From: Closterium sp. NIES-65
Lineage: Eukaryota > Streptophyta > Zygnematophyceae > Desmidiales > Closteriaceae
DNA length: 64,000 nucleotides
Direction of reading: 5' to 3'
Assembly (NCBI GenBank): GCA_948144175.1
Contig: CANXME010001987.1
Coordinates: 124,001 to 188,000, forward strand
How positions within the stretch are numbered: position 1 is the first letter of the stretch; every line of letters begins with the position of its first letter. Made by a program: the position numbers and the translations under genes. The notes below the pieces were generated by a model. The model was not told the origin of the DNA and did not search any database. It was given only the letters and a program-made list of their open reading frames with translations. Of the stretch, positions 601 through 55,268 are shown piece after piece.

Positions 601-1592
601 GTAAAACGTACTGTAAGGTATTAGAATTTGCAAAAGGCTATGATTTCCACAGGCTGCACAGCGGGTATAATCTGTCAATCTATTATCTTGGAGCAATTAG
701 ATGAATCAATGCAACATTTACCATCGTCCAAACAAAGACATTATGTACTATTGGGGAAAGCAAGATAAACGTGTATTATTTTTGCTGCTGTACTTTTAGC
801 GAGCATGCACTTTTCCAACCGCCTGCAGTCTGCTTTTATGGGGTAGGTTGACATGCAGCAGCAGAAGTGTGCCGGCAGCAGGTCTCACGTCAGCAGAGAG
901 ATCGGCAATCCCAAGAGGTACTTCAGCGCCGCCGATGTCAGTCACTTTCAAGTCAAGACCCAACGGCTTTAGCTGGCTCCACTTGAGGGTTATTTTATAA
1001 CGGCAGGTTGGAGAAGAGTCAAGTCCCATCCTAGCTTACGCTGACTAAGACCAGAGACAGCCGTGAAGTCTGTCGCATGAATCTGTGGTCATCCTTGCTT
1101 CACTATAACCGTTGGAAGCGTAAACGACTCCACTCGAGGTGACTTTTGAGTTGACTCAAAAGTCAAGAAAAGAGACAGCCGTGAAGTCTATCGCATGAAT
1201 CTGTGGTCATCCGTGTTTCACTGGAACCGCTGGAAGCGTAGACGAATCCTCTCGTTATGAGTGACAACAGCTGTGTCGTTCCGGTACGGTATGCCATCTG
1301 ATCGTCGCTAATGCTTACTACATCTTAAATCTAGCCCTGACAGTTGCCTGAGGGAGTCTGTAGCTCCGTTTTGAGTCGTCCCGCAACAGATTTTGCCATC
1401 GCAGGTCTAGCCCTGGCAGCCTGAGGTTATCTGTCGCTCCTGTTTTGAGTCGTCTCCTGCTCTGACGAGATTTGACTCAGATTTGTCTCTCCTGCGTCAC
1501 CGCCTGCTCATCGTATCACTGTCGCTGATCCGCATGGTAACGCCACTATTGTATCACCACCACTGTAAGTTAACCACGGAAACACTGCAACC
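601..1592. other. Intergenic/5' region of the sigma gene with tandem duplications
   Basis: No convincing gene. A 77-codon ORF on the minus strand (796-1029) has normal amino-acid composition, including GLDLKVTDIGGAEVPLG, but I recognise no family; it could be an exon fragment. Two imperfect tandem duplications are visible. Bases 1054-1137 recur at 1172-1254 with a palindrome between them. Another segment repeats with a 74-bp period, so TTTTGAGTCGTC appears at 1369 and again at 1443. Confidence 0.5.
1141..1164. repeat. Palindrome, TTTTGAG/CTCAAAA family (centre TTGA)
   Basis: GACTTTTGAG-TTGA-CTCAAAAGTC, perfect apart from the centre. It sits between the copies 1054-1137 and 1172-1254. Confidence 0.85.
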
Positions 1593-3423: not shown

Positions 3424-3461
<38 letters not shown>

Positions 3462-6400
3462 TCTGCTGGTGACTCTGGTACACCGTTTACTCGTGCTCCT
3501 GCTCGTGGTGCTCCTGCTCGTGGTGCTCCTGCTCGTGGTGCTCCTGCTCGTGGTGCTCCTGCTCGTGATGCTCCTGCTCGTGATGATGCTGCTGCTGGTG
3601 CTGGTGGTTTGAGCATGGGTCGGATGAAGATGAGGAGAAGAAGTACAAGCCTTGAAGCTGGTGTGCAGGAGGCATTAGCAGGCGGCTGGCATGCCACAGA
3701 AAGTGGGCAGCATGCATCAGCAAGTGGACGGCATGCCACAGAAAGTGGGCGGCATGCAGTGGCTGAAGGTGAAAGGCAGATGAGGTGTGGTGCTTACAGT
3801 CAGAGATGGAGTAACGGGGAAACGGGAAGAGAGATGGATATGGAGGAATGGAGAGGAGGAGGGGCTGGTAGGGATGACGAGAGGGAGGCATGGAGGGAGG
3901 CGTGGAGGGAAGCAGGGCGGGAGGCAAGGAGGGAAGCGTGGGGGGAGGCAAAGAGTGAAGCAGGAAAGGATGCAGGGGGTGGGGAGGAGCAGGAGGGTGG
4001 GATTGAGGAGTGGGGAGCAGAGAAAAAGGGGAGAAGTAAGCGAGGGGGCAGCAAGAAGCAGAGGAGTGCGAGTGAGGGGCGTGTGGGGATGGAGCGTGCG
4101 CGTGCAGCTATGGGGGAAACTGGTGCGGCATGGGAGAGAGAATCTGCAGGGTTCGGTGGTCGGTTGAGCCAGGAGGAAGCGGAGGCATACAATCGTGTGA
4201 TGAAGGTGAGTGAGTGGGTGAGAGAGAGGGAGTGCAAGTGAGGGGTGTGTGGGGGGGATGGATGGTGTGCGTGTAGTTATGACAGGAAGTGGTGTGGCAT
4301 GGGAGGGAGTATCTGCAGGGTTCGGTGGTCGGTTGAGCCAAGAGGAAGCGCATTTTCTACCTTTCTCAGTTCTTTGTCCTTGCTCTTTTTCTCTTTCTCA
4401 ACTGAGACGAATTTTGAGGCGCCTCAAAAGTCGTCTCAGTTCTCGTGGTTTTTGTATCGAGAGGATTTTGAGGCACCTCAGAAGTCAATTTCTTCGTTTC
4501 TCAGTCCTTGTCCTTGCTCATTTTCTCTTTCTCAACTGATTCCCCTGTTGCACCACGATACCATAGGTATGTGTACCTTGTCTACCATTCCCATCCCATC
4601 TCCTTATTCCCATGCCTATTCCCACGTCCTCCTCTCGTCAACTGTTTTTCCTCAATTCCGCTTCCTCTCCCCCCTCACTTGTGGCTCTTCCCTTTCCACC
4701 TGCATGCTCGCTTCTTCAGGCAGTAGTTCAGCTCAACGCTCACCAGCGCCGAGTGGTCACCAGCAGCAGCGGCACCGGCGGCAGCGTGAACAGCAGCAGG
4801 AGCAGCAGCAATAGCACCGATAGCAGCAAGAGCGTTGGCCGCCACAACAGCAACAGCGGGCACGCATCACCACCACTTGAGCAGCCAGGGTTACAGGCAG
4901 CAATCAATGCAGACATGCATGGTGTGGCGTTGGACCACTCAGATGAAGCAACAGCTAATGACAACCACCATTCCCGGGACCTCGTGCACCTGTAACCACC
5001 AACCTTGGTTTATAGCCCCCTTAGCTCTCTACACCCCGTGCTGCATACCCCGTAGCTCAAAACCCCTTTCGCTCCTGCTGCCTTAGCCCAAACCCGTTTC
5101 TCGACCCAAGTACCCATGGCCTAGCAGCGTCTGCTGGCTACGTGTAAAAAGGGTAGTTTTTAGTGTAAAAGAGACGTCTCAAAACTACTCTTTTCACACC
5201 CGAAGTACCCTTGGCCTAGCAGCGTCTGCTGGCTGCCCTCTCAGGAGAGAGTCTCTTAAAACAGCTCCCCTTTATTTCCCCTTCTTCCCTTGCCTCTGCC
5301 CTCCGTTCCCCCTCATCGTCCCTCCTCCGCTGCCGTTTCACCTGTGTACACGCAACCCCCCAGTGCGGCCCAGGCGCCCTTGGCCCAGCAGCGGCTCGTG
5401 GCGGCTCACTCAGGCCTGGTTCCTCGTCCTCAACACGCCGACCACCCATCCTCCTCCTGCTCACCCTCAACCGTCCCTCGTCTCCCCTCCCACACCCCCT
5501 ACCCAGTGCGGCCCAAGCGCCCTTGGCCCAGCAGCGCCTGGTGGCTGGCGGCTCACTCAGGCCTGGTATCCTTTTCTCAACACCCTGACCATCCTCCCCT
5601 TTTCCACCCACCAACTCTCTCTCGTTTCCCCCCCCACCCCCCACCCAGTGCGGCCCAAGCGCCCTTGGCCCAGCAGCGGCTCGTGGCGGCTCACTCAAGC
5701 CTGGTGCGCTCCATTGCTCGCCGCTTCTTCGGGCATGGGGTGTCCCTCTCCGACCTCTACCACGTGTGTGAGGGGATGAAGGGGGGATGGAGCGGGGGAC
5801 TGGGGAGGGGTGAGATGGGTTGGAGCAATGGAGAGACTTTGATTCGCCTAGTGCCGGCTCATTCAGGGCGAGTGCGCTCCATTGCGCGCCGCTTCTTTGG
5901 CCACGGGGTGTCCCTCTCTGACTTCTACCACGTGGGTACAAGAGGGAGGGGGGGGGGGGGGGGGGTGATGGGGGTATGGCACTGAGGGTAGAGATGGGGC
6001 AGACGGCTTTCTTCGGCCACGGGGTGTCCCTCTCCGACCTCTTCCACGTGCGTACACGCTTGTGTTGGGGGTTGTGGTGTTGGGGAGGTGGTTTTAAGGG
6101 AGGTGGTTTTGGGGAAGGCAGGAAGAGGCTGGGATGGTGAGACTGCTTCTTCGGGCACGGGGTGTCCCTCTCCGACCTCTACCACGTGGTTACAATACAA
6201 GAGAGCGAGGGAGGGGGGGGGGGGGGGTTGATGGGGGTATGGCACTGAGGGTAGAGATGGGGTAGACGGCTTTCTCGGCCACGGGGTGTCCCTCTCCGAC
6301 CTCTACCACGTGTGTGAGGGGATGGAGTGATGGATGCACTTAGGGAGGTGGAGGTGGTGGGGGCTGAGATGCCTAAGATGGGTGATATGGGGGTTATGAT

Positions 6401-7411: not shown

Positions 7412-7464
<53 letters not shown>

Positions 7465-10400
7465 CAATGTCCTTCTCATCATGGGCCAGTCGTCTTGTTT
7501 ACCAGGTGAGCCCCATCCTCCTCCCTGTAACCCACAACCACCCCCCTCTCCCCTCACCCCTCCTCGATTTAACCCATCTCGCCCACAACCCCCTTGCAGT
7601 TGCCCGTTCACCACACCCTTGCTCCTCCTACTCCCACCTCCCTCCCACGAAGTGCCGGCCGGTTACCTGTCTTCTCCCACGAGGTGCCGGCCGGTTACCT
7701 GTCTTCTCCTTGCTGTGCCCCTTTCTTGTGTTCTACGAGCTGGTTTTTGAGAATTCTCAAAAGCCAACCCTCCCACGAGGTGCCGGTTACCTGTCTTCTC
7801 CCACGAGGTGCCGGCTGGTTACCTGTCTTCTCCCACGAGGTGCCGGCTGGTTACCTGTCTTCTCCTTGCTGTGCTCCTTTCTTGTATTCCCGCTTGACCA
7901 CACAGACCACCCAATTCCATCCGCTCCCCCTCCCTCCATTCCCCTCTCCCTCCAATCTCTTCTCTCTCCCTCTCCCGCGCAGACCCTCCAGCAGGAGGTG
8001 TGGCGCCGCTCACCAGTCTTCTCCTTCCCATGCTCCTTGCTTGAATGCCCGTTTGAAACCCCCTTTGAAACCCCCTTCCACTCCCGCCTCTCTCCCCTCC
8101 ACCTCCACTCACCAGACCCTCCAGCAGGAGGTGTGGCGCCGCTCACCAGTCTTCTCCTTCCCACGCTACGCCTACTTCCAATACGCTGAGATTTCTGCCG
8201 CCTATGCTGTAAGCCCATGTGTCATTCTGTACCATTCTGTGCCATTTCGTGCCATTGTAACGAGGTGAGTAGTTTTGAGGCACTGTAAAAGCCATTTGCC
8301 TGTTTCTTCCTTCCCATGCTATGCCTACTTTCAATGCGCTGAGACCTCTGCTGCCCTGCATTTTCGGAGTGAGAGAGAGAGCAAACATTTACGCCTAATT
8401 TCGTGAAACGTTTTTGCTCTCTCTCTCACTCCCAAATTTCCAAAGCCTTGCATACCCTTTCGCTTTTCCTTCCTGTCTCACCCTCGCGTTTCAGCTATTC
8501 CTGAAGCCATACTGATGCAAGGCACTCAGAAAGAGGCAGAGAACTTCTATGAGTTCATTGGATTAGTGAGAGCTCTTAACCTTGCTTCCACGATTTCAAC
8601 CTATACCCTCCATCTGCTCTCTCATCTCTCACACACTCTCTCCTTCTCTCCCCATCGCCCCTCACCTTCTCCCCCCACGCAGTCATTTCGGAAGCAGCAC
8701 GCCCAGGAGCCCCCTCTCGCAGCCCCCTCAGCCACCACCTAGTGACTTCAAAGTCGATTCAAAAGCGCCTCTCTCCCCTTCCCCCCTCACCCTCGGCCCC
8801 CACCCAGTCATTCCGGAAGCAGCACGCCCGGGAGCCCCCTCTCGCAGCCCCCTCAGCCTCGTTTCCATGCTCTCACTCTCCCATCTCCATTCCGCCTCTC
8901 TCTTTCTATTGCCCCTCACCTTCTGCCCCCACCCAGTCTTTCCGGAAGCAGCACGCTCGGGAACCCACCCTCGCAGACCTCTCAGCTGCCACCAGCCTCT
9001 CACCCCAACGGGTATGCGGCGGAATTCACCCGTGAACCTTAGGGTAGCTGCGGAATGTGCCCATTAACTCAAGGGGTAGGCTGCGGAATGTGCCAATGAA
9101 CGCAGTGGGTGGGTATGCCGCCGATTGTGCTCATGAATCCATGGGTACGCTGAGTAATATGCCCACGAATTGCTGCAAGTTACCATCGCTCACCTCCCTG
9201 CCATGCCATCCCTCTCGCCCACCAGATTGTGACTGTATCGAGGGCCATGAGGCGAATAAAGAATTGCCTTGTATGTGTTTTGTTACACTCCTCCCACCAG
9301 ATTGTGACTGTATCGAGGGCCATGCGGCGAGTGAAGAACCCTCTCTCTTTCGACGTCTCCTTGCTCCCCAACCGCACCCATGCTGAGACCTTCTCCAACG
9401 ACAAAGCGGACCCCTGGCAGGTGGGTTTGAGATTGGACTGAGAGGAGGGATGAGAACAGGGATGAGAACAGGGATGAGAATGCGACAGTAACAACCTCCT
9501 CTCCTCCCCCCCCCGCATCCCCCCCTCCTTCTACTCCTCCTCTTCTCCGCCCAACAGCATCTACTGGACTCGGAGCATCTGGTCCTCCTCTCACACGCTC
9601 TCTCCTCGCTTCCCTCCATCTATCCGTCTCCACGTCTCCTCTATGTCTTCCCTCCCTCGCTTCCTCTCTTCCCCATCCAACAGCATCTCCTGGACTCAGA
9701 GCATCTCGTCCTCCTCTCACGCGCTCTCCCCTTTTTTTGAGCCGGCAAAAACAACCTCCCCCGCCTCTCCTTCTACTCCTCCCGTTCTTCTCCTCCTGTC
9801 TTCCCCATCCAACAGCATCTCCTGGACTCGGAGCATCTGGTCCTCCTCTCACACGCTCTCTCCACCCTCGACCCGCACCGCCGCCTCGTGAGTGCACTTT
9901 TGCTAACACATGGGCAGAGGCGGCGGGTACAAATGGGTAGTGGTGCGTACAAATGAGCAGAGGCGGTTACAAATGGGCAGAGGCAGGTACAAATGAGGGT
10001 ACAGAGGGGCAGAGGTGGGTACGGATAAGCTGCAATTCTCTGTGCATGTGCCGTGTTTTCATGCACCTTCCCTAAGAAGTCATATTTTGAGTCGACTCAA
10101 AACACGACTCAATACAAGCAGAATCAGCTGCAATTCTCTGTGCATGTGCCGCGTGTTCATGCACCTTCTCTAAGATCGTTGCAACGACGTTCGCCGTTCC
10201 TCTACCTGACTCGCACCGCCCTCGCCCCCTTCGTTTCTGCACCCTGAATGAGCAGATTCTGGAGCTTCGGCTTAGCCTTAGGGGTTCTCGCCGTGTGCCA
10301 TGTGTTCCTGTGCCCCTTCTCCGCACATGGTGTAATCTCTCCCTACCTCTCTCTCCCTGTCTCTGACCGTCCTCGCCCCCTTCGTTTCCGCACCCTGAAT

Positions 10401-11218
10401 GAGCAGATTCTGGAGCTTCGGTTTGGCCTGCGGGGGTCTCGCCAAGTCTCACAAGAGGAGGTGAGTGCATGCTTCCATTTGCCCTGATTTGAGTCGACTC
10501 AAAGCAGTCTCACAAGAGGAGGTGAGTGCATGCCTTGGTGTGGCCTGCATGCATCATTCCACTTGATGCACCATTTGACATATGACGATGCACTGCGTTT
10601 ACTTTTGAGTCGACTCAAAAGCCACTACGGTGTGGCCTGCATGCATCATTCCACTTGATGCACCATTTGACATATGACGATGCACTGTGTTTGACATTCG
10701 TTTTTGCGTGTTTTTTCGCAGATTGCTGCAGCGTTGGGGATGACACCCAAGATGGTGTCTTACTTGGAGGTGAGTGTGTGTGTGAAGGGGAGAGGTGAAG
10801 CACCTGGTGCTGACGGTGAAAGGCTCCCCTTTCCCAAGGTGGCAGGGGACTTGGAAGAGGAACGAACACAACAGACCATACAAAATTTGTATTCCAGACG
10901 TATCATATGTGCTTGCCATGTGCACATCACAATCGAGGGGTGTGGTGGGTGCGGGCGTGTGCATGTGTGTCATTGTGTGCGTTTTGCTTATTTCGTGGTT
11001 ATTTTATACTTTCTAAGGTGTCATTTGTGGTTGCTATGTTTTGTGTGTGTTTGTGGTGGTGGTGGTGGTGGTGGGGGGGTGCGGGCGTGATTGAGTGTGG
11101 GTGCGTGTGCGGAACGCACGGGTGTGTGTTTGTGCGCACGTGTGTGTGAGTCACATTGCAGGTTTCAGCATTGAAGCAATTGAGGAAGGCATGTGTGGGT
11201 GGCACAAATATAAAGTGA
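1593..11218 (+). CDS. Nuclear-encoded plastid RNA polymerase sigma factor (sigma-70 family), multi-exon
   Basis: Promoter-recognition subunit for the bacterial-type plastid RNA polymerase. Proposed exons: 1593-4205, 4720-4991 (end tentative), 5649-5763, 6735-7352, 8116-8208, 8937-9011, 9301-9420, 9816-9887, 10404-10460, 10722-10769, 11162-11218; phases close at 1379 codons. Sigma region 2.1 is RLVAAHSSLVRSIARRFF with GVSLSDLYH; 2.2 is AGVTALLRAAATYNPT; 2.3-2.4 is SFSSWASRLVYQ; region 3 holds AREPTLADLSAATSLSPQR; region 4 is QILELRFGLRGSRQ, then EEIAAALGMTPKMVSYLE and a final ALKQLRKA. The first exon encodes 871 low-complexity residues with a transit-peptide-like start (MAAVNPPLLSGVAVRGRAQ). 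About 180 charged, Q-rich residues are inserted between regions 2.2 and 2.3, which is unusual. Most introns carry partial copies of adjacent exons. Sigma identity is firm; the second exon and the N-terminal half are less sure. Confidence 0.88.
3481..3600 (+). repeat. 15-bp coding minisatellite in the sigma gene N-terminal exon
   Basis: Repeats of CTCGTGGTGCTCCTG encode alternating APARG pentapeptides. Poly-serine AGC tracts precede it (about 3424-3462), and an earlier Ser-rich block lies at 2208-2307. The unit is a multiple of three, so the frame is kept. Confidence 0.85.
4229..4352 (+). repeat. Tandem copy of the end of sigma exon 1 inside intron 1
   Basis: This segment repeats 4066-4185 with a period of about 163 bp, including the part encoding GFGGRLSQEEA. 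Point differences and small indels separate the copies. The true exon ends at 4205 (AAG before GTGAGT). Confidence 0.75.
4401..4440. repeat. 40-bp near-perfect palindrome, centre GCGC
   Basis: Arms extend ACTGAGACGA...TCGTCTCAGT around TTTTGAGGCGCCTCAAAA, with one mismatch. A second, weaker copy (TTTTGAGGCACCTCAGAAG) lies about 65 bp on. Flanked by direct copies 4363-4404 and 4497-4539. Confidence 0.9.
5142..5198. repeat. Interrupted palindrome, centre ACGT
   Basis: GTGTAAAAAGGGTAGTTTT pairs with AAAACTACTCTTTTCACAC around GAGACGTCTC; the left arm has an 11-nt insertion. Flanked by copies 5106-5139 and 5201-5236. Confidence 0.75.
5361..6311 (+). repeat. Cluster of partial copies of the sigma region-2.1 exon
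   Basis: Two upstream copies (from about 5363 and 5505) carry a CAG acceptor and the 5' half of the exon, ending near HSGLV. The complete exon is 5649-5763. Four downstream copies (about 5845-5933, 6010-6050, 6150-6192, 6276-6311) carry only the 3' half, encoding FFGHGVSLSD, with a donor-like GTG after CAC. Only the middle copy encodes the whole sigma motif. Confidence 0.8.
6644..6702 (+). repeat. (CTCTC)n pyrimidine microsatellite before a 3' splice site
   Basis: About eleven CTCTC/CCTCT units lie in the pyrimidine-rich stretch ahead of the acceptor CAG at 6732-6734 that starts the sigma region-2.2 exon. Confidence 0.8.
7412..7505 (+). repeat. Copy of the sigma region-2.3 exon end with an expanded (CAG)n acceptor
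   Basis: The last bases of the exon at 6735-7352, encoding AMSFSSWASRLVYQ and its donor GTGAGC, recur at 7465-7505. The copy is preceded by about 16 CAG triplets (7417-7464), which extend the exon's own AGCAGCAG. If used, it would add a Gln tract. Confidence 0.8.
7741..7766. repeat. Palindrome, centre AATT
   Basis: TGG(T/C)TTTTGAG-AATT-CTCAAAAGCCA with one mismatch, amid repeats of an ACGAGGTGCCGG sequence. Confidence 0.85.
7982..9815 (+). repeat. Upstream partial copies of sigma exons 5 to 8
   Basis: Acceptor-plus-exon-start copies precede each true exon: 7982-8037 (true 8116-8208), 8683-8742 and 8808-8860 (true 8937-9011), 9226-9275 (true 9301-9420), and 9558-9612 and 9684-9732 (true 9816-9887). 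The copies diverge or run into intron sequence where the true exon continues. Choosing the last copy each time gives a clean sigma reading frame. Confidence 0.75.
8366..8432 (+). other. Intronic stem-loop with perfect 20-bp arms
   Basis: The left arm (8366-8385) is GGAGTGAGAGAGAGAGCAAA. The right arm (8413-8432) is its exact reverse complement, with a 27-nt loop between them. It lies in a sigma-gene intron. It could be a recruited GA/CT repeat or a small hairpin RNA precursor; nothing here decides. Confidence 0.7.
10085..10102. repeat. Palindrome, centre TCGA
   Basis: Exact TTTTGAGTCGACTCAAAA between direct copies 10030-10077 and 10127-10175. Confidence 0.92.
10488..10503. repeat. Palindrome, centre TCGA (16 bp)
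   Basis: TTTGAGTCGACTCAAA between exact 28-bp copies 10445-10472 and 10506-10533, which include the donor of the sigma exon ending at 10460. Confidence 0.9.
10603..10620. repeat. Palindrome, centre TCGA
   Basis: Exact TTTTGAGTCGACTCAAAA between a 66-bp direct duplication (10535-10600 and 10628-10692) that differs at very few positions. Confidence 0.95.
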
Positions 11219-20195: not shown

Positions 20196-20198
20196 AAA

Positions 20199-20938: not shown

Positions 20939-20941
20939 TAA

Positions 20942-22093: not shown

Positions 22094-22177
22094 CCAGATT
22101 TGTCTAAACAGCCTGAATCCCTAGGCTTATTATTGCAACGACGAGGCCTAGTAGCTGAGGCTAGCCGACCACGCGAC

Positions 22178-42300: not shown

Positions 42301-45300
42301 GCCCTCCGCCGCCCCACCTCGCTGCGCCTGCTGCTGCAGTCGGAGGCAATTCCAGACCTTCTAGCCTGGCTCACCTCCCCCCACTGGTACGTCTGTGGGC
42401 GCTTGCTCATGGTTCAGCTGTTGTTGGGGGCACGGCACGGGCACCCTAGGCCGTCTGCCGCCACACCTCCCTGCGCCTCCTGCTGCTGCGGTCGGAAGCC
42501 ATCCCTGGCCTGACCTGCTCGCCTTTTGAGACGTCTCAAAAGTCTGACCTGACCTGCTCGCCTGGCTCACATCGCCCCACTGGTGGGCTCGAATGCTGTG
42601 CTGTGCCTCATGTCCTCCTACCCGACCCCTCTTGTTTGAGATTGATTTTGAGAATTCTCAAAATCAATCTCAAACAGAATGCTCTGTGCCTCATGTCCTG
42701 ACCCCTCTACCCGACCCCTCTTGTCATGCCACACAATTGAGACAGAGGACCAGCATGTCCCCTCCTTTTCTTACCTTTCCTCCTCCCCCCCTCCCCCCAC
42801 ATGTCACACCAGTGAGGCGGAGGACCAGCAAGTGTAGAGGGATGCGGTGGCAATGGCGCGGTCTGCAGCGGATCTTACCTTTTCCTCCCTCCACCCCTCG
42901 TCTCTTCCCCCCCTCCCCCCACATGTCACTCCAGTGAGGCGGAGGACCAGCAGGTGTTGAGGGACGTGGTGGCAATGGCGCGGTCGGCAGCGGTTCTTAC
43001 CCTCCTGCCTTCTCGCCCCTCTCTGCATTGTGTCCCTCCCCTCTCCTTGTCACTCCAGTGAGGCAGGGGATCAGCAGGTGCTGAGGGACGTGGTGGCAAT
43101 GATGCGATCGGCTGTGCTCCTTACCTTCCCTCCACCCCTCCACCCTTCCTCCCCTACTTTCCCCTCCCTCTCCCCTCCACAGTGAGGCGGAGGACCAGCA
43201 GTTGCTGAGGGACGTGGTGGCAATGATGCGGTCAGCATTGCTCCTTACCTTCCCTCCACCCCTCCACCCTTCCTCCCCTACTTTCCCCTCCCTCTCCCCT
43301 CCACAGTGAGGCGGAGGACCAGCAGTTGCTGAGGGACGTGGTGGCAATGATGCGGTCAGCATTGCTCCTTACCTTCCCTCCACCCCTCCACCCTTCCTCC
43401 CCTACTTTCCCCTCCCTCTCCCCTCCACAGTGAGGCGGAGGACCAGCAGGTGCTGAGGGACGTGGTGGCAATGATGCGGTCAGCATTGCTCCTTACCTTC
43501 CCTCCACCCCTCCACCCTTCCTCCCCTACTTTCCCCTCCCTCTCCCCTCCACAGTGAGGCGGAGGACCAGCAGGTGCTGAGGGACGTGGTGGCAATGATG
43601 CGGTCAGCAGTGGTGGCGGAGGCTGGCAGTGGAAGGTGACGTGTGCCTCGATCCCCACTCTCTTTCTCCTCCCCTCCTCCTTTCCCCCCATCCACAGTGA
43701 GGCAGAGGACCAGCAGGTGCTGAGGGATGTGGTGGCGATGATGCAATCAGCAGCGGTGGCGGAGGCAGGCAGAAGATGATAAATCATCCCTCCTCTCCTT
43801 CTTCGCCTCCCTCCCCTCTTCTTGTAACGCCAGTGAGGCGGAGGACCAGCAGGTGCTGAGGGACGTGGTGGCAATGATGCGGTCAGCAGCGGTGGCGGAG
43901 GCAGGCGGTGGGTGATGGGACATGCCTTTATCCCCTCCTCTCCTTCTCCTCCCTCCCTCTATCTCTTCCCTCTTTTTTTTTACTCCAGTGAGGCGGAGGA
44001 CCAGCAGGTGCTGAGGGACGTGGTGGCAATGATGCGGTCAGCAGCGGTGGCGGAGGCAGGCGGTGGGTGATGGGACATGCCTTTATCCCCTCCTCTCCTT
44101 CTCCTCCCTCCCTCTATCTCTTCCCTCTTTTTTTTTACTCCAGTGAGGCGGAGGACCAGCAGGTGCTGAGGGACGTGGTGGCAATGATGCGGTCAGCAGC
44201 GGTGGCGGAGGCAGGCGGTGGGTGATGGGACATGCCTTTATCCCCTCCTCTCCTTCTCCTCCCTCCCTCTATCTCTTCCCTCTTTTTTTTTACTCCAGTG
44301 AGGCGGAGGACCAGCAGGTGCTGAGGGACGTGGTGGCAATGATGCGGTCAGCAGCGGTGGAGGCGGGCAGCCGATCTTGAGACGTGCCTTATGTCCCCTC
44401 CTGTCTCTCATCTCCCTTCCCTTTGCTCTGATCACTGCAGTGAGGCAGAGGACCAGCAGGTGCTGAGGGACGTGGTGGCAATGATGCGATCAGCAGCGGT
44501 GGAGGAGGCAGGCAGCCGATCTTGAGACGTGCCTTATGTCCCCTCCTGTCTCTCATCTCCCTTCCCTTTGCTCTGATCACTGCAGTGAGGCAGAGGACCA
44601 GCAGGTGTTGAGGGACGTGGTGGCAATGATGCGATCAGCAGCGGTGGAGGAGGCAGGCAGCCGATCTTGAGACGTGCCTTATGTCCCCTCCTGTCTCTCA
44701 TCTCCCTTCCCTTTGCTCTGATCACTGCAGTGAGGCAGAGGACCAGCAGGTGTTGAGGGACGTGGTGGCAATGATGCGATCAGCAGCGGTGGAGGAGGCA
44801 GGCAGCCGATCTTGAGACGTGCCTTATGTCCCCTCCTGTCTCTCATCTCCCTTCCCTTTGCTCTGATCACTGCAGTGAGGCAGAGGACCAGCAGGTGCTG
44901 AGGGACGTGGTGGCAATGATGCGATCAGCAGCGGTGGAGGAGGCAGGCAGCCGATCTTGAGACGTGCCTTATGTCCCCTCCTGTCTCTCATCTCCCTTCC
45001 CTTTGCTCTGATCACTGCAGTGAGGCAGAGGACCAGCAGGTGTTGAGGGACGTGGTGGCAATGATGCGATCAGCAGCGGTGGAGGAGGCAGGCAGCCGAT
45101 CTTGAGACGTGCCTTATGTCCCCTCCTGTCTCTCATCTCCCTTCCCTTTGCTCTGATCACTGCAGTGAGGCAGAGGACCAGCAGGTGTTGAGGGACGTGG
45201 TGGCAATGATGCGATCAGCAGCGGTGGAGGAGGCAGGCAGCCGATCTTGAGACGTGCCTTATGTCCCCTCCTGTCTCTCATCTCCCTTCCCTTTGCTCTG

Positions 45301-46808
45301 ATCACTGCAGTGAGGCAGAGGACCAGCAGGTGCTGAGGGACGTGGTGGCAATGATGCGATCAGCAGCGGTGGAGGAGGCAGGCAGCCGATCTTGAGACGT
45401 GCCTTATGTCCCCTCCTGTCTCTCATCTCCCTTCCCTTTGCTCTGATCACTGCAGTGAGGCAGAGGACCAGCAGGTGTTGAGGGACGTGGTGGCAATGAT
45501 GCGATCAGCAGCGGTGGAGGAGGCAGGCAGCCGATCTTGAGACGTGCCTTATGTCCCCTCCTGTCTCTCATCTCCCTTCCCTTTGCTCTGATCACTGCAG
45601 TGAGCCGGAGGACCAGCAGGTGTTGAGGGACGTGGTGGCAATGATGCGGTCGGCAGCCGTGGAGGAGGCGGGCAGAGGATGGGACAAGGTTTCAACACCT
45701 CTCCTGCCCCTCTCCCGCCCCCCTCTATTTTTGTTATTGCAGTGAAGCAGAGGATCAGCAGGTGTTGAGGGACGTGGTGGCAATGATGCGATCGGCAGCG
45801 GTGGAGGAGGCAGGCAGCCTGCATTGGTCGAAAGGCTTCTGGGCCTTCTTCCGCACCCACTCCGTGCTGCACCGCGCCAAAACATGGTGAGTGAATCACT
45901 AGGAGCCCATGGCATGGTGAGGTGTTGCAGTGCTGTGAGAAGCAGGCAGCCTGCACCGGTCGAAAGGCTTCTGGGCCTTCTTCCGCACCCACTCTGTGCT
46001 GCACCGCGCCAAGACATGGTGAGTTGGGGCACGGTGAATTAAGGCATGGTTAGCCTGGGCAATCACAGGCGAGCCCAGGCAATCACAGGCGAGTCCAGGC
46101 AATCACGGGCATGGTGACCCCAGGGCATGGTGCGGTGTGCACGTGTGTTGGCTGGCTCTAAGCGGCAAGTGTGCACGTGTGTGAGCCCTGCCCGCCTGCA
46201 CTGGCCGCACTGATTCTTCCACACTCACTTTGCGCTGCACCGCGCCAAGACATGGTGCGTGAATTGACATTTGAGTCGACTCATATGTCACCTCGCTGCA
46301 CCGCGCTAAGACATGGTATGTGAATCACGGTAGGAGCCCATGGCATGGTGAGGTGTAGTTTTGAGGCGCCTCAAAACTAGAGCCCATGGCATGGTGAGGT
46401 GTGTAAGTGCTGTGAGAGGCAGGCAGCCTGCAATGGTGTCAGGGCTTCTGGGCCTTCTTCCGCACCCACTCCGTGCTGCACCGCGCCAAGGCCTGGTGAG
46501 TTGGGGCATGGTGAGGCAATATCTGAGAATCCAGGTCGTTGAGGTGTGCGAGTGTGTTGGCTTGTCGAGGCAGGCAGCTTGCACTGGTCCCCCGGCTTCT
46601 GGGCATTAGTTTGCAGTCACTCCGTGCTGCACCGCGCCAAGGCCTGGTGAGTCAAGTGTTGGTGAGGTGAGTGTAGGGCATGGAGGGATGGACTGCCCTT
46701 AAAATGTCTGCTCTGCCTTTTCTTTTTCTTTCTATTATTGTGTCTCTCGACTCGTGCAGTGTGCAGCCTTGTCTGCCGTCAAAGCCGCTGCTGGAAGATG
46801 ACATGTAA
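27332..46808 (+). CDS. Giant cell-surface protein: signal peptide, Pmp-type beta-helix, Cys-rich module, multi-pass membrane region
   Basis: Seventeen exons: 27332-27452, 27937-28026, 28267-28291, 28974-30484, 30922-31094, 31335-31494, 32083-32350, 32674-32878, 33636-34506, 34634-35168, 35676-36705, 36926-37593, 38319-38418, 39032-39276, 40251-42386, 45743-45886, 46760-46808. They total 8331 nt (2776 aa), in phase throughout. Order: signal peptide (LIVPLLLLLLLALAVGQAE); TIEQAL plus PPTGGTILLSPGTH, the usual start of a right-handed beta-helix; then many GGAI and FxxN motifs (FEGNTGHRGGAIF) as in polymorphic outer-membrane repeats; Cys-rich GCC2/GCC3-like segments (CPPGQFYTRPGMTCEVCPIG); about six or more hydrophobic helices (RLFPLLLLLIVLAWVAMGI onward); a long low-complexity cytoplasmic part; short C-terminus. 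Probably plasma membrane or wall contact. Ligand unknown. Confidence 0.85.
27494..27511. repeat. Palindrome, centre AATT
   Basis: Exact TTTTGAGAATTCTCAAAA between copies 27451-27478 and 27511-27537. The duplicated segment starts at the donor of beta-helix exon 1. Confidence 0.92.
28595..28915 (+). repeat. Two decayed upstream copies of the beta-helix exon start
   Basis: Near 28600-28690 and 28816-28915 lie diverged versions of the exon beginning at 28974 (encoding TILLSPGTH and VPPLGLQLGG). CACTC-, CACCC- and CCTTC-rich filler separates them. Confidence 0.75.
30571..30651 (+). repeat. Downstream copy of the exon end at 30484
   Basis: Repeats the part encoding FEGHVTVRRSRHERNEAQFR with its GTGTGAGTAT donor, spacing about 164 bp. 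A G-rich homopolymer stretch (30498-30526) lies between the copies. Confidence 0.8.
30784..30813. repeat. 30-bp palindrome, centre ACGT
   Basis: GGTTATTTCTGAG-ACGT-CTCAAAAATAACC, one mismatch, between copies 30739-30781 and 30832-30873. Confidence 0.9.
31495..31735 (+). repeat. 18-bp minisatellite starting at a 5' splice site
   Basis: About 13 units built on GGTTGACTGGAAGGGGGT run directly from the donor GCAG|GTGGGT of the exon ending at 31494. Units are nearly identical, with ACGGG or AAAGG variants. A copy of the preceding exon end follows at 31768-31835 with the same donor. Confidence 0.9.
31898..31955. repeat. Stem-loop with GAATTC core between direct copies
   Basis: Perfect 15-bp arms CTATGTTGAGTTTAC and GTAAACTCAACATAG surround a loop containing TTGAGAATTCTC. 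Flanked by the exact copies 31847-31884 and 31955-31992. Confidence 0.85.
32416..33520 (+). repeat. Partial copies of beta-helix exons 7, 8 and 9
   Basis: 32421-32506 copies the end of the exon at 32083-32350 (GGQASNGGGV onward) but gains a TGTG that breaks the frame. 32974-33033 and 33106-33193 copy the end of the exon at 32674-32878 (HFFNNSAMDGGMLW) plus donor. 33386-33515 copies the start of the exon at 33636 (HISSSVMA, IQGGALYC) without a usable donor. Confidence 0.8.
34507..34633 (+). other. Short intron resolving an apparent frameshift
   Basis: The frame before 34590 ends in a poly-G stretch, and the next frame is offset. A donor GGG|GTGAGG at 34507 and acceptor ATTGCAG ending at 34633 remove 127 nt and restore the phase needed at both neighbouring junctions. 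An indel in the G-run is the alternative. Confidence 0.65.
34943..35012 (+). repeat. GGGGCA/GGGGGA coding hexanucleotide repeat
   Basis: About eleven 6-bp units encode a Gly-Ala then Gly-Gly tract within the extracellular part of the beta-helix gene. Confidence 0.8.
35276..35303. repeat. 28-bp perfect palindrome, centre TCGA
   Basis: GTGAC, then TTTTGAGTCGACTCAAAA, then GTCAC, between copies 35236-35275 and 35308-35354. Confidence 0.95.
35409..35580 (+). repeat. Upstream copy of the Cys-rich exon start
   Basis: Repeats 35676-35815 (WSGQND..., then LHVTVLDAAGLIPV) with indels, including an extra CACTGC tract. It lacks the continuation into the Cys-rich segment. Confidence 0.75.
36766..36835 (+). 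repeat. Upstream copy of a membrane-exon start
   Basis: Repeats the acceptor and start of the exon at 36926 (GACNTNATNGGGCCAGGCTG, then CAGCAGTGGGCAGTCAC) about 158 bp earlier. Confidence 0.8.
37594..37995 (+). repeat. 33-bp minisatellite starting at a 5' splice site, interrupted by two palindromes
   Basis: About ten units begin with the donor GTGAGTGACACATGATGGG and end GGTCAGCCG, so each unit carries the exon's last bases and its donor. The array starts at the donor of the exon ending at 37593. Two TTTTGAGGCGCCTCAAAA palindromes (37907 and 37948) break the last units. Confidence 0.92.
37907..37965. repeat. Two GCGC-centre palindromes inside the 33-bp minisatellite
   Basis: Exact TTTTGAGGCGCCTCAAAA at 37907-37924 and again at 37948-37965, each replacing part of a repeat unit. 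Confidence 0.95.
38105..38318 (+). repeat. GGCAT/TGCAT satellite running into a 3' splice site
   Basis: Pentanucleotide runs of GGCAT and GCATT with GTGATGTG spacers occupy the intron end, immediately before the acceptor GGCACAG at 38312-38318. No polypyrimidine tract is visible. Confidence 0.85.
38584..38890 (+). repeat. Two upstream copies of the exon encoding VSVTLPLQAIRIGLQYGA
   Basis: Copies start near 38585 and 38743; the complete exon is 39032-39276. The second copy runs as far as LTGFNF, then meets a decayed palindrome (CTTCTGAGGCCCCTCAAGAA) near 38884-38903. Confidence 0.82.
39541..40140 (+). repeat. Four upstream copies of the exon starting YIT(R/H)CNC
   Basis: Acceptor-plus-start copies begin at about 39541, 39655, 39790 and 39959; the complete exon starts at 40251. 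Copies lengthen toward the true exon: the first covers about 55 nt and the fourth about 180 nt (through LVHPSDIARWFRPHVL). Confidence 0.85.
41020..41510 (+). repeat. Coding repeats EAGSRRLGTP and GTPGGG
   Basis: A 30-bp unit repeats four to five times at 41020-41160. Short GGTACACCTGGGGGAG-like units follow at 41385-41500. Both keep the frame in the cytoplasmic part of the beta-helix gene. Confidence 0.8.
42524..42541. repeat. Palindrome, centre ACGT
   Basis: Exact TTTTGAGACGTCTCAAAA between the 14-bp copies CTGACCTGCTCGCC (42510-42523 and 42549-42562; first base of the first copy C). Confidence 0.92.
42634..42675. repeat. 42-bp perfect palindrome, centre AATT
   Basis: GTTTGAGATTGATTTTGAG, then AATT, then the exact inverse. 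Flanked by imperfect copies of a segment with GTGCCTCATGTCCT and ACCCGACCCCTCTTGT on both sides. Confidence 0.95.
42808..45742 (+). repeat. Array of about 21 acceptor-plus-exon-start decoys (EAEDQQVLRDVVAMMRSA)
   Basis: Each unit has a pyrimidine tract, CAG acceptor and about 60-90 nt encoding EAEDQQ(V/L)LRDVVAMMRSA. Spacing forms blocks: about 124 bp (43182-43555), about 155 bp (43833-44298) and exactly 145 bp, nine times (44441-45746). In the 145-bp block the frame then reads GSRS and stops. Only the final unit (exon 45743-45886) continues into WSKGFWAFFRTHSVLHR and a good donor. Confidence 0.92.
46265..46290. repeat. 26-bp palindrome, centre TCGA
   Basis: TGACATTTGAG-TCGA-CTCATATGTCA with one mismatch, between copies of CGCTGCACCGCGC(C/T)AAGAC. 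Confidence 0.88.
46356..46379. repeat. 24-bp perfect palindrome, centre GCGC
   Basis: TAGTTTTGAG-GCGC-CTCAAAACTA between copies of GAGCCCATGGCATGGTGAGG. Confidence 0.93.
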
Positions 46809-46980
46809 TGCAACTGCTGGAGGATGACATGTAATGTAACTGAACCGGGATGACATGTAATGGCTGCTGGAAGGGGACGTGTAAGTAACTGAGCTGGGAT
46901 GACATTTTATTTTCATTGGTGTGAGGTCATTAACTGATTTCCTAAGTTGGGAGATGAGATGTAATATAAGGTAACTGATC
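46788..46980 (+). repeat. Tandem decayed copies of the terminal codons and stop
   Basis: The last coding bases (CTGCTGGAAGATGACATGTAA) recur after the true stop in diverged form four or five times (GGATGACATGTAATG and similar), in what should be the 3' UTR. Confidence 0.7.
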
Positions 46981-47438: not shown

Positions 47439-47520
47439 CGTGTTCAGCAGGACTCGAACCTGCGCGGGCAGAGCCCAACAGATTTCTAGTCTGTCCCGTT
47501 AACCACTCCGGCATGAACAC
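47439..47520 (-). tRNA. tRNA-Ser(AGA)
   Basis: The minus strand folds as a full class II tRNA of 82 nt. The 7-bp acceptor stem is GTGTTCA/TGAACAC. The anticodon stem is ACAGA/TCTGT around loop CTAGAAA (anticodon AGA). A variable arm GGGC...GCCC and a T arm GCAGG-TTCGAGT-CCTGC follow. The discriminator is G, no CCA is encoded and no intron is seen. A TTTT Pol III terminator follows immediately. Confidence 0.95.
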
Positions 47521-47597
47521 ATGTACATCTATTCTTCTGATACTAATGCAGCCTATACTTTCAACACGCCTTCTCATTGAACGCGCTTCGTCCTTGC

Positions 47598-50500: not shown

Positions 50501-53500
50501 TCAGGTATGTGGTCCCTCCTCCCATCAGGTATGTGGTCCCTCCTCCCATCAGGTATGTGGTCCCTCCTCCCATCAGGTATGTGGTCCCTCCTCCCATCAG
50601 GTATGTGGTCCCTCCTCCCATCAGGTATGTGGTCCCTCCTCCCATCAGGTATGTGGTCCCTCCTCCCATCAGGTATGTGGTCCCTCCTCCCATCAGGTAT
50701 GTGGTCCCTCCTCCCATCAGGTATGTGGTCCCTCCTCCCATCAGGTATGTGGTCCCTCCTCCCATCAGGTATGTGGTCCCTCCTCCCATCAGGTATGTGG
50801 TCCCTCCTCCCATCAGGTATGTGGTCCCTCCTCCCATCAGGTATGTGGTCCCTCCTCCCATCAGGTATGTGGTCCCTCCTCCCATCAGGTATGTGGTCCC
50901 TCCTCCCATCAGGTATGTGGTCCCTCCTCCCATCAGGTATGTGGTCCCTCCTCCCATCAGGTATGTGGTCCCTCCTCCCATCAGGTATGTGGTCCCTCCT
51001 CCCATCAGGTATGTGGTCCCTCCTCCCATCAGGTATGTGGTCCCTCCTCCCATCAGGTATGTGGTCCCTCCTCCCATCAGGTATGTGGTCCCTCCTCCCA
51101 TCAGGTATGTGGTCCCTCCTCCCATCAGGTATGTGGTCCCTCCTCCCATCAGGTATGTGGTCCCTCCTCCCATCAGGTATGTGGTCCCTCCTCCCATCAG
51201 GTATGTGGTCCCTCCTCCCATCAGGTATGTGGTCCCTCCTCCCATCAGGTATGTGGTCCCTCCTCCCATCAGGTATGTGGTCCCTCCTCCCATCAGGTAT
51301 GTGGTCCCTCCTCCCATCAGGTATGTGGTCCCTCCTCCCATCAGGTATGTGGTCCCTCCTCCCATCAGGTATGTGGTCCCTCCTCCCATCAGGTATGTGG
51401 TCCCTCCTCCCATCAGGTATGTGGTCCCTCCTCCCATCAGGTATGTGGTCCCTCCTCCCATCAGGTATGTGGTCCCTCCTCCCATCAGGTATGTGGTCCC
51501 TCCTCCCATCAGGTATGTGGTCCCTCCTCCCATCAGGTATGTGGTCCCTCCTCCCATCAGGTATGTGGTCCCTCCTCCCATCAGGTATGTGGTCCCTCCT
51601 CCCATCAGGTATGTGGTCCCTCCTCCCATCAGGTATGTGGTCCTCCTCCCATCAGGTATGTGGTCCCTCCTCCCATCAGGTATGTGGTCCCTCCTCCCAT
51701 CAGGTATGTGGTCCCTCCTCCCATCAGGTATGTGGTCCCTCCTCCCATCAGGTATGTGGTCCCTCCTCCCATCAGGTATGTGGTCCCTCCTCCCATCAGG
51801 TATGTGGTCCCTCCTCCCATCAGGTATGTGGTCCCTCCTCCCATCAGGTATGTGGTCCCTCCTCCCATCAGGTATGTGGTCCCTCCTCCCATCAGGTATG
51901 TGGTCCCTCCTCCCATCAGGTATGTGGTCCCTCCTCCCATCAGGTATGTGGTCCCTCCTCCCATCAGGTATGTGGTCCCTCCTCCCATCAGGTATGTGGT
52001 CCCTCCTCCCATCAGGTATGTGGTCCCTCCTCCCATCAGGTATGTGGTCCCTCCTCCCATCAGGTATGTGGTCCCTCCTCCCATCAGGTATGTGGTCCCT
52101 CCTCCCATCAGGTATGTGGTCCCTCCTCCCATCAGGTATGTGGTCCCTCCTCCCATCAGGTATGTGGTCCCTCCTCCCATCAGGTATGTGGTCCCTCCTC
52201 CCATCAGGTATGTGGTCCCTCCTCCCATCAGGTATGTGGTCCCTCCTCCCATCAGGTATGTGGTCCCTCTTCCCATCAGGTATGTGGTCCCTCTCTTCTG
52301 TTGTTCTTGTCTATGTTTCCGTTTGGGTGGTATCCAGTCATCCTTTTGAGTCGACTCAAAAGTCACTCCGTTTTGGGTGGTATCCAGTCATCCTCTTCTT
52401 CACACCATTACCTCACTCTCAGTCTTCCTCACTACACCCTCCTCCCAAACCCTCCTACTAAACCCTCCAACCAACCATTCTCACTATTCCTTCCCTGCTT
52501 CCCTTATTCCAATCCCCCCCCCTCTTTCCCACCTGCCAGGGAAGGGGCGGTCAGCATGTGTTGCCACACTCAAGGGCCATGAGGGGCCGATATCGGCTCT
52601 GGCTGTTGCCACGTGGGTGATTTGTTTCTTCCTTGGCTTGACTTCCGTCCTCGTGTGATTGAACTCTTGAGAATTCTCAAAAGCTGCATGCTTGTACCGT
52701 ACACCAGCATCGTCCTGTCGATGCAATAACTGCCCTGCCTGTTGCTGCATGGGTGATTTCGTTCCTGGCCTCGTACTGCCACATATTGCCAGTTCTGTTC
52801 TCCTTACATGCAAGACCACCAGCATGGGTTACATGCTTGCACCATGCATATCAGCATCGTCCTCCTGTCCATGCAATAACTGCCCTGGCTGCTGCTTCGT
52901 GCGTTTCTTTCTCCCTCCCTCAACGTGTTGTTGCTTGCACAAGCTTGCACGGCACCAGCGTTCTTTCCCTTTTCATTTGTCCTTCTCTCGACTCCCTCGT
53001 GCCATCATACTCCCTCCCTCCTTCACTCGCCTTCCTGCCATCCTCATTGTCCCTCTCCCTCTCCCCCTTCCCTTTCCCCTCGCCCTTTCCCTCACTCAAT
53101 TGTTGGTAGGGCACCGGACTTGTTCCCCTGTTGGGTGTGGGCCGGCTACAGTAGCGTTCTAGAGGGTTATGGGTGTGCTAGACCAGACAAACATGCCCTT
53201 TTGAGTTGAAACCCAGGCGGTAACAGGCTGAGTCGTCGTCATCATCCGTGTCACTTTAACTTACCCTACTCATGCCCCTCTCCTCTCAACATCACCCCTC
53301 GCCCTCCCTCATCGCAGTCACAACCCCTTCCTTCTGGCCAGTGTTGCTCGTGACGCCAAGGTGAGGATTGCTAGGGAGTTGTTTTTCCCAAGCACCTTTA
53401 TCCATGATACCGTATTTGTGGTTCAAAATTCTCGCACTGATTCATAAGCAGGTGATTCACATCCACACCACCACCCTTCAGCCGATTAATTAATCTGCCT

Positions 53501-55268
53501 GCACGCACCCTCTCTTCCTTGATGTTTTGTCCACCCTCTTTCTCACTCGCTTTCATAAGCCGGACTTGATTGTCTTAATCTCTTTCTTTGTTTCATCTGC
53601 TGCTTCTTGTCCCATCCCAAGCAGCTGCGACTGTGGGATTGCCGCCACATGATTCCATCCTCCATCACCATGGATGCCGCGGCGCACAAGGCGACTACTT
53701 CTCTCTCCCCAACCTCCTCCTCCTCCTCGTCGTCTTCCTCGCCTTGCATCGGCACGTGCCGCACGCCCACAGCCCCCTTTGCTCTCCTCCCCCTCCCACC
53801 TCACCCCACCCATGCGCTGTGCCTTGTGGTGGGCCGAGGTGGCATAGCGGCTCTGGACTTGCTCTCAATGAAACAGGTATGGCATGGTGTGAGAGACGTG
53901 GCCACACACCAAATCAGTGAGACTGGTTCAGAGTTGTATTGCACGCCCTCACCCCACCCATGCTCTGTGCTTGGTGATGGGCAGAGGCGGCATAGCGGCT
54001 CTGGACTTGCTTTCAATGAAACAGGTATGGCATGGGAGGTGCAGCACAGGCACGTGTCGCACGCCCACAGCCTGTTCTGTGCCTTGTGGTGGGCCAAGGA
54101 GGCATAGCGGCCCTGGGCCTGCTTTCAATGAAACAGGAACGGCAATTGTAACTTCCTTACCACTGAAACAGGCATGGTCCTGGCAGCGTGCACAGTCCTT
54201 GGAGCATGTATTTGTGTGAATTGAGAATTCTAAAAAGATCAGGCATGGTCCTGGCAGCGTGCACAGTACTTCGCATATGTGATGTCTGAGTCGTGTACAA
54301 CGACTGCATTAAGAATCTGAACATTAGCATACACCTGTCTTGTTGCCAACACTTCCTTTGCCCGCCCCTCACCCACTCTTTTCTGCTCTCCCCACGCCCC
54401 CACTCTCTTCGCCCACACTCAGGTACTCGCCCTCCCATGTGGGTCCGCCCCTCTCTCCTCCTTCGCCTCCTCTCCATCGCGCTGCATCTTTGCAGCAGGC
54501 TCTGAGGATGGGTGTGTCAGGCTGTGGCGCATGGGGCAGGTGCGGGAGGAAGGGGCAGCGGAAAGAATAAACACTGCAGGAGCAGCTGGGGCGGGAGGGC
54601 AGCTCTCAGCAGGCATGCGAGAATCTAAAGTGCTCTCAAACTGCTGCCAGGCAGGCGTGGCTGAGTTCACGCTGCTCGCCTGCTCAAAGGCGCACATCAG
54701 TACAGTGGATTTACTGTACGTGGACGGTTATAAATGCATCAGTGGGAGCCGAGGGGACGGAGTGTTGTGTGTGTGGGATGTGGAGACTGGGGAGGAGATT
54801 CGCACGTTGGACGCTACTGTTCTCCCCCCCTGGCTGGTGGAAACCGATGATGCTAGTAACGAGGGTCATGGTGATGGTGGTGGTGGTGAAGCTGCTGCTG
54901 GTGGTAACCTTACAAATGCTGGTAACCGCAGCGATTCAACAGCGGATGTTGACCTTATAGGGGAAGGTGGTGCTACAGCTGATGTTGCGACTGCTGGCGA
55001 AAGTAGGGGCAATGCTCCTGAGACCGTGAGGCGAGTTCTAGTGGAGAGTATGCATGCATGTGGGGGTGTGGTAGTTGCTGCCTTGGTGAGCTATCGCAGG
55101 AGGACTGTGCTTGGGAGGAGGATGCAACATCATGTGGTGGAGGAGGTTGAAGGCAGATGGATGCGTTTGTGGGATTTCACTTGTGGGAAAGCTTCATTGT
55201 TAGATGATGGTAATTTTTTAAGGGAAGAGGATGAGTCTATGATAGTGGGTGGAGGAAAATTCTGGTAG
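47598..55268 (+). CDS. F-box / WD40-repeat protein (putative SCF substrate receptor)
   Basis: Exons: 47598-47777, 47996-48451, 49023-49229, 50072-50288, 52540-52612, 53318-53360, 53625-53876, 54423-55268. They sum to 2274 nt (757 aa), with phase kept. The N-terminus is an F-box (LADLTADCFAHCCRWLSPRD, LVNLSFCCSSLRQLA), which would bind SKP1. WD40 blades follow: NILLWG with LTAHKGRITALL, LDRTLRLWGK, SFSGHTGPILCL with GGSDSTVRVWSL, LKGHEGPISALAVA with FLLASVARDAKLRLWD, GSEDGCVRLWRMG, and CISGSRGDGVLCVWDVETGE. The likely role is recognising a target for ubiquitination; the substrate is unknown. Poly-Ser and Gly/Ala-rich insertions lie between blades. The first donor (CAG|GTTCGC) is weak. Two introns carry minisatellites that start at the donor. 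Confidence 0.88.
48852..49566 (+). repeat. Copies flanking the first WD40 exon
   Basis: 48852-48985 is an upstream copy of the exon start (GSNVILW, TAHKGRITALL) without a donor. 49369-49433 and 49500-49565 are downstream copies of its end (HTFLLSASLDRTLRLWGK) with GTGAGA. A CCCTAGCCCCTCATCCCGCC-type repeat (three units) lies at about 49286-49365. Confidence 0.82.
49563..49846 (+). repeat. 18-bp minisatellite made of a 5' splice site
   Basis: About 15-16 units of GTGAGAGATACTTGCAAG directly follow the last copy of the exon end. Each junction reads CAAG|GTGAGA, so the whole array is a string of donor sites. One unit has ACGTG for ACTTG. The array is open in all three forward frames. Confidence 0.95.
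50265..52290 (+). repeat. 24-bp minisatellite, about 83 copies, starting at a 5' splice site
   Basis: The unit starts GTATGTGGTCCC and ends TCCCATCAG, so every junction reads CCATCAG|GTATGT. It fuses the last coding bases of the WD40 exon (VWSLLPSG) with its donor. Units are almost identical; I see one 1-base deletion (near 51640) and one C-to-T change near the end. Long ORFs through it are artefacts of a unit divisible by three. Confidence 0.97.
52344..52361. repeat. Palindrome, centre TCGA
   Basis: Exact TTTTGAGTCGACTCAAAA between copies 52319-52344 and 52368-52394, which differ by one T. Confidence 0.93.
52590..52905 (+). repeat. Diverged tandem copies after the WD40 exon ending at 52612
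   Basis: A segment with GGCTGTTGCCACGTGGGTGA recurs at about 52736 and, more diverged, near 52888. Linked motifs (CAGCATCGTCCT, ATGCAATAACTGCCCTG) at about 52704-52735 recur at 52851-52885. The period is roughly 145 bp. A palindrome lies at 52665. Confidence 0.6.
52665..52682. repeat. Palindrome, centre AATT
   Basis: TCTTGAGAATTCTCAAAA, one mismatch, inside the diverged duplication at 52.6-52.9 kb. Confidence 0.82.
53940..54145 (+). repeat. Two downstream copies of the exon end encoding ALDLLSMKQ
   Basis: Copies near 53957-54026 and 54085-54137 repeat the exon end at 53876, including TCAATGAAACAGG. Indels break the frame. Confidence 0.75.
54219..54236. repeat. Decayed palindrome, centre AATT
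   Basis: AATTGAGAATTCTAAAAA between near-exact copies of GGCATGGTCCTGGCAGCGTG (about 54171 and 54241). Confidence 0.75.

Follow-up and report, generated by a model that had tools for sequence, protein, structure and literature searches.

We analysed a 64,000-nucleotide window of the genome of Closterium sp. NIES-65 (positions 124001-188000 of contig C1689, in an assembly of 874,075,685 bases and 2,400 contigs), which carries a family of short palindromes with the core TTTTGAG-N4-CTCAAAA. The core occurs 13 times as an exact match in the window, where 0.00 were expected from 100 dinucleotide shuffles, and 19 times when up to two mismatches are allowed, where 0.18 were expected, and this bears out a preliminary description of the same DNA that had counted a family of about 20 palindromes. 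The half-sites TTTGAG and CTCAAA stand four bases apart 14 times and never at gaps of 0-3 or 5-12 bases, and of the window's 25 best palindromes, 16 are members of the core family. A genome-wide search, which had been proposed as a check, returned 30,327 exact cores in the assembly versus 4 copies of a control pattern in which the core is written backwards. From these counts we conclude that the palindrome family is real and not due to chance.

The cores are distributed very unevenly along the assembly. Their mean density is about 35 per Mb assembly-wide versus 203 per Mb in the window, and none were found in 290 kb taken from eleven contigs as 29 stretches, three of which are organellar-, bacterial- or satellite-like by composition. 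The whole-assembly list of core places, in contig order, begins at contig C6, and a 2-Mb contig has copies in its interior. The extended 24-mer GACTTTTGAGN4CTCAAAAGTC was found 0 times in viral and 0 times in prokaryotic contigs, a search from which the window's own or near-identical genomes were possibly excluded. Contigs C20, C40 and C80 (L144-L146) contain organellar- or bacterial-looking stretches, with GC contents of 0.41 and 0.30, and a satellite array whose units resemble ACACGGTGGGTTGA.

Along the window, where features are listed without strand, the palindromes lie between imperfect direct copies of adjoining DNA, hereafter called the target. At the members with a TCGA centre, a 23-bp insert at 52344..52366 is flanked by copies at 52318-52343 and 52367-52393 (26/26 positions identical), a 28-bp insert at 10601..10628 (core at 10603) by copies at 10537-10600 and 10629-10692 (63/64), and the insert at 10078..10122 (core at 10085) by copies at 10025-10077 and 10123-10175 (49/53). 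The core at 10487..10505 has two changes and copies at 10445-10486 and 10506-10547 (86%), and a 29-bp insert at 46265..46293 (core at 46269) has altered arms and copies at 46233-46264 and 46294-46325. The insert at 1137..1164 reads AGGTGAC-core-GTC with the centre TTGA, a decayed TCGA, between copies at 1047-1136 and 1165-1254 (79/90); a decayed TCGA-like member, GTGACTTCAAAGTCGATTCAAAAG, lies at 8734..8769 between copies at 8645-8733 and 8770-8858; and a decayed member with the centre CCGG lies at 9732..9765 (core at 9735) between copies at 9635-9731 and 9766-9863 (85/96).

Members with a GCGC centre include a 23-bp insert of the form AG-core-CTA at 46357..46379 (core at 46359), whose flanking copies at 46334-46356 and 46380-46402 are identical (23/23), and an 80-bp insert at 4406..4485 that holds two cores, one at 4412 (GCGC) and one at 4466 (GCAC), between copies at 4351-4405 and 4486-4539. 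Two further GCGC cores, at 37907 and 37948, lie within 37907..37965 where a 33-bp minisatellite ends, and a 13-bp repeat, GTCAGCCGGTGAG, is found on both sides of 37948. The minisatellite itself spans 37577-37905 and carries a 5′ splice-site-like CCG/GTGAGT. For the ACGT centre, a 20-bp insert at 42524..42543 stands between copies at 42505-42523 and 42544-42562, and a 55-bp insert at 30777..30831, with a core at 30790 that has one change and an imperfect palindrome over 30775-30822, stands between copies at 30740-30776 and 30832-30868 (36/37). A decayed ACGT member at 5140..5202 (core at 5178) has long arms, one of which appears by eye to be interrupted by extra bases, and copies at 5108-5139 and 5203-5234.

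The AATT members include a perfect 44-bp palindrome at 42633..42676 (core at 42646), whose flanking copies at 42591-42635 and 42677-42724 overlap the palindrome by 3 bases at their ends, a 26-bp insert at 27486..27511 (core at 27494) with copies at 27452-27485 and 27512-27544 (27/33), and an insert region at 7734..7797 (core at 7745) with copies at 7642-7733 and 7798-7889 (87/92). Decayed AATT members are found at 31899..31953, where inverted repeats are nested between copies at 31846-31898 and 31954-32006 (50/53), and at 54201..54239, with copies at 54169-54200 and 54240-54271 (31/32). The AATT core at 52665..52682 has one change and a distant, weak repeat at 52590-52629 and 52726-52766 (32/40). 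A perfect 28-bp palindrome, GTGACTTTTGAGTCGACTCAAAAGTCAC, lies at 35276..35303 between copies at about 35229-35276 and 35300-35354 (44/48). By eye, the duplicated targets at 10445-10547, 46233-46325 and 27452-27544 seem to hold the 5′ splice-site-like motifs GTGAGT, GTGCGT and GTATGC, and to judge from such motifs, insertion of a palindrome may create spare splice sites.

The four bases at the centre of the core are nearly always self-complementary. In the window, the 13 exact cores have the centres TCGA (4), GCGC (4), AATT (3), ACGT (1) and TTGA (1), so that 12 of the 13 are self-complementary, and in the assembly TCGA accounts for 13,080 exact cores and GCGC for 5,851, with AATT, ACGT and mutants among the other 11,396. 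When we read 38 sites, taken from 46 cores of the window and of loci L150-L172 whose flanks were long enough and with the arrays L152 and L153 each counted once, the centres were TCGA (17), GCGC (10), AATT (5), ACGT (4), TTGA (1) and ACAT (1). Thus, the earlier claim that the family has four self-complementary centres held at 36 of 38 sites, versus 2 of the 120 listed matches to the 18-base pattern in viral contigs, which served as chance occurrences; flanking duplication was found at none of these 120 listed copies. By hand count, one of the four centres is present at 46 of the first 50 places listed for the assembly, and the remaining four (TTGA, AATC, ACAT and TCAA) are each one substitution from a main centre.

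We scored the flanking duplications in the window with a strict test of abutment (score of at least 40, both gaps at most 30), and 13 of 20 sites passed it (8 of the 13 exact ones and 5 of 7 near-exact ones), versus 448 of 5,753 control positions (7.8%). The seven near-exact sites were picked by hand from a window that has 29 places with up to three mismatches, 13 of them exact and 16 not, and nine of these 16 (1369, 2060, 8273, 9735, 14786, 33276, 38891, 62608 and 62783) stood outside the test. Site 37907 passes but sits within the minisatellite. All seven failures still show direct repeats on alignment that are shorter, older or farther off: sites 4412 and 4466 share the one 80-bp insert, 7745 has a gap of 35 bp, 27494 a score of 30, 37948 and 42524 repeats of just 13 bp and 19 bp, and 52665 gaps of 35 and 43. 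A second, looser test was passed by 24 of 29 loci beyond the window, which were drawn from core listings with six picked for their GCGC centres and so are not a random sample; of the control positions, 128 of 1,000 from sampled loci (12.8%) and 178 of 1,000 from the window (17.8%) passed. At four of the outside failures (L157, L164, L170 and L173), the repeat is present but weaker or more distant. The claim that the palindromes lie between imperfect direct copies is therefore upheld inside the window and beyond it.

In a set of 36 sites, inserts are 19-98 bp and duplicated targets 11-114 bp long, with the longest values coming from sites in repetitive sequence (L155 and L157); this set leaves out L158, L167, L168, window sites 4412, 4466, 37907, 37948 and 52665, and the relics 5178 and 8734-8769. 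With the same exclusions, and L155, L157, L172 and window site 9735 also set aside, no target-site motif can be seen among 27 starts and 28 ends. Looking from the duplications instead, we found a palindromic spacer (at least 6 bases per arm) in 12 of 95 tandem duplications in the window versus 0 of 219 in 260 kb elsewhere, a sample that leaves out L144-L146.

For three of the 16 window sites that we queried, insert-free paralogous sequence spans the site. The paralogue of 46359 (45866-46005) is 88% similar over 142 bases and that of 46269 (45846-45925) is 89% similar over 82 bases, and each lacks the core as well as a second copy of the target; the two are one single paralogous segment. The paralogue of 42524 (42296-42388) is 78% similar and gives a weaker, less clean empty site. 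The simplest order of events is that the paralogue was duplicated and that insertion with target duplication followed. Because the empty paralogues hold one copy of the target and the same architecture recurs outside the window, we conclude that the sites are very probably insertions that duplicate their target, and the suggestion of the preliminary description that a tiny palindrome does so gains support from the empty paralogues and from the 24 of 29 outside loci that look alike.

The palindromes consist of the 18-bp core and up to about 15 bases of mirrored arm on each side, with the consensus arm AGGTGAC-TTTTGAG. The core is conserved, the outer bases diverge, and left and right arms are unequal in length. 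When arms were compared within sites and with a between-site shuffle, the first outer base matched at 0.82 versus 0.44 (0 of 2000 shuffles as high), the second at 0.61 versus 0.32, the third at 0.50 versus 0.37 and the fourth at 0.55 versus 0.36; past base 6 a clear excess appears at base 10 only. Long arms vary between sites yet remain mirrored, as in the 44-bp palindrome at 42633-42676, at 30775-30822 and at L169 and L170, and some recur: a 14-base left arm is common to window place 33276 and L150 (contig C6), and a long AATT-type arm to 42646 and L156. Since the arms are mirrored within sites and some of them recur elsewhere, they arrived with the insert. The earlier view that the arms extend into local sequence is thus mostly overturned, standing at 4412 only, where the right arm mirrors a six-base stretch of the left target copy, a hint of possible fold-back copying from one end.

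Some sites are compound. Arrays of target-core units with periods of 37 and 53 have five cores and six target copies (L152 and L153), and an array on contig C21 has eleven cores with a period of 42. At L168, three target copies are separated by one GCGC and one ACGT core, so one target was apparently hit twice; at L167, two GCGC cores lie 11 bp apart inside one duplication, and at L164 the insert is in threefold tandem. Flanking copies differ by up to about 20%, with a divergence of 7.3% at 28 intact and 8.2% at 8 decayed cores, a weak comparison of ages in that the outside sites were selected for intact arms and intact cores are over-represented in the set. Decayed cores are frequent in the window. 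The abundance of decayed cores and these divergences of the copies fit long-term insertion and later unconstrained decay, which suggests that the cores are under no selective maintenance and that their uniformity stems from their source.

What that source might be was put, in the preliminary description, as a choice between a fold-back element and a scar of templated end-joining. Of the two, a plain end-joining scar is disfavoured: one core at 30,327 places calls for a specific source sequence, which such a scar cannot supply. Polymerase theta makes templated and snap-back insertions and can copy inverted sequence into junctions, and 4412 may show such snap-back copying. Unlike polymerase theta inserts, which are of local origin, the palindromes have one core throughout, and apart from the partial exception of 4412 their inserts are not copied from the flank.

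We consider it possible, on a tentative footing, that break ends are tailed from one template and joined through self-complementary ends. A putative nuclease would cut the two strands 11-114 bp apart, giving a staggered break, and each 3′ end would be extended by copying the end of one small template, RNA or DNA, that ends in AGGTGAC-TTTTGAG-N4. Copying would start at variable points and always stop at the template end, as a reverse transcriptase does at a template boundary, so that both tails carry an identical four-base end. Pairing of the tails would need this tetramer to be self-complementary, which would account for the four centres (TCGA, GCGC, ACGT and AATT) as well as for the constant spacing and the mirroring of the arms. 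Fill-in of the staggered overhangs would then duplicate the target, target-core units could later expand into arrays, and the core, once in place, would decay without constraint; the model also predicts microhomology at the junctions.

Several steps of this scheme have partial precedents. In L1 target-primed reverse transcription with twin priming, inserts can come out inverted when a single RNA serves both ends of the break (PMC2837659, as far as the available part of that text goes). Target duplications of variable length are likewise seen with non-LTR and SINE insertions made in this way, but the palindromes have neither the constant 3′ end with a tail nor the variable 5′ truncation of those elements, and unlike L1 the insert is tiny, symmetric and non-directional. 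Telomerase can make interstitial telomeric repeats at mammalian breaks by copying a fixed sequence from a template, sometimes with target duplications (PMC2246262, in the portion available), but the palindromes are mostly a single TTTTGAG-N4-CTCAAAA unit without telomeric repeat units, and they regularly carry a long target duplication. Small tandem duplications arise by fill-in of staggered breaks (PMC8355091), and unlike the sites reported here, those duplications are not described, in the accessible part of that paper, as having a conserved palindrome between the copies. The palindromes are also distinct from what a full-text literature search of one open collection returned, in which no matching element was described and no paper contained any of six 17-20-base sequences. 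Fill-in of staggered breaks as a source of small tandem duplications was reportedly also treated by Vaughn and Bennetzen in 2014. According to the genome-size paper on Closterium, repeat proportions are about 47-64% and copy number varies widely, and the word "palindrome" is absent from the part of its text that was available (PMC10407611).

A number of observations weigh against tailing from a template or against target-duplicating insertion in general. The template RNA, the polymerase and the nuclease are all hypothetical, and four centres dominate among the 16 self-complementary tetramers, for which the pairing of tails alone gives no reason. A preformed palindrome would fit equally well with the perfect symmetry of the 44 bp at 42633 and with the long arms that mirror each other at L169 and L170, and the mirror at 4412, which takes in six bases of the target, suggests that copying folded back from one end. 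Over 36 sites, core decay and copy divergence are not correlated (Spearman 0.14, p 0.42). Three core-like places in the window (2060, 14786 and 33276) were aligned and show no duplication, a fourth (62783) has none with a best score of 18, and duplication is absent at outside locus L158.

The main rival to tailing from a template is that palindromes are excised as short hairpins, ligated into staggered breaks elsewhere and spread by repair, which we regard as unlikely, though worth serious consideration. Mre11-type hairpin cleavage offers a possible route of excision. The short, palindrome-centred inserts, the mirrored arms trimmed to unequal lengths, the 14-base arm common to 33276 and L150, the AATT-type arm that L156 has in common with 42646 and the perfect palindrome at 42633 are all consistent with capture. 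A captured hairpin accounts for the symmetry equally well but not for the dominance of one core, since any palindrome should spread in this way, yet one core supplies most of the best palindromes of the window. The lack of palindromic spacers among the 219 duplications elsewhere also counts against capture, but weakly because that 260-kb sample itself lacks the core family.

Somewhat less likely again is a minimal fold-back transposon resembling a miniature inverted-repeat transposable element (MITE), in which a transposase supplied from outside would bind the 18-bp core and cut with a wide stagger. In MITEs and fold-back DNA transposons, the outer ends are conserved and the target duplication is short and of fixed length. 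The palindromes are like them in being short, non-coding, inverted-repeat, multicopy and target-duplicating, and the very high copy number, the clean insertions and the flanks that are identical at some copies and diverged at others would fit such an element. But unlike MITEs and other terminal-inverted-repeat transposons, the palindromes conserve their centre and vary at their ends, duplicate 11-114 bp rather than one fixed short length, and have no visible target motif.

That the tandem duplications came first, and the palindrome arose or inserted at their junctions later, is improbable: tandem duplications abound in the genome (219 of them in 260 kb sampled outside the window), but a clean paralogous segment lacks both the core and the second copy, and abutting copies are far more frequent at the core than at control positions. 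An assembly or library artefact of joining adaptors or unmerged contig ends, which the preliminary description had wanted excluded first, is very unlikely indeed, for although the centres resemble restriction-site hexamers (which we take to be those of SalI, KasI/NarI, AatII and EcoRI), the cores are mutated, their flanking copies diverge by up to about 20%, and 30,327 copies exist, some of them interior to a 2-Mb contig, alongside paralogous empty sites.

With tailing from a template as the preferred reading, the palindromes could represent, although we hold this with reserve, a class of insertion, selfish or made by repair, that has not been described before: a gene-free palindrome of 18-50 bp without fixed ends that has inserted tens of thousands of times in one algal genome. 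If so, they would rank with the smallest known mobile insertions, and a conserved centre with variable ends would imply that the joins are made by a chemistry foreign to ordinary transposons. Every site would record one break and the length of its overhang, so that a genome with 30,327 cores would be a direct record of staggered-break repair. Such insertion would also provide a route for duplicating target DNA, possibly including splice sites, and for seeding minisatellites.

A second palindrome, GGCCTAGGCT-N4-AGCCTAGGCC (L123, L128, L137 and L148), was considered as a sister family and rejected: flanking duplication is absent and several of its copies share flanks, so that it probably belongs to a larger repeat. 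Elsewhere in the window, a near-perfect minisatellite of about 2 kb with a 24-base period occupies 50270-52293 and has several open frames on both strands. A frame on the minus strand at 12666-13880 encodes a protein-kinase domain, and two armadillo-repeat proteins are encoded at 22094-25330 and 56833-59862, the first of which matches proteins of Closterium sp. NIES-53 (88%), NIES-54 (84%) and NIES-68 (76%).

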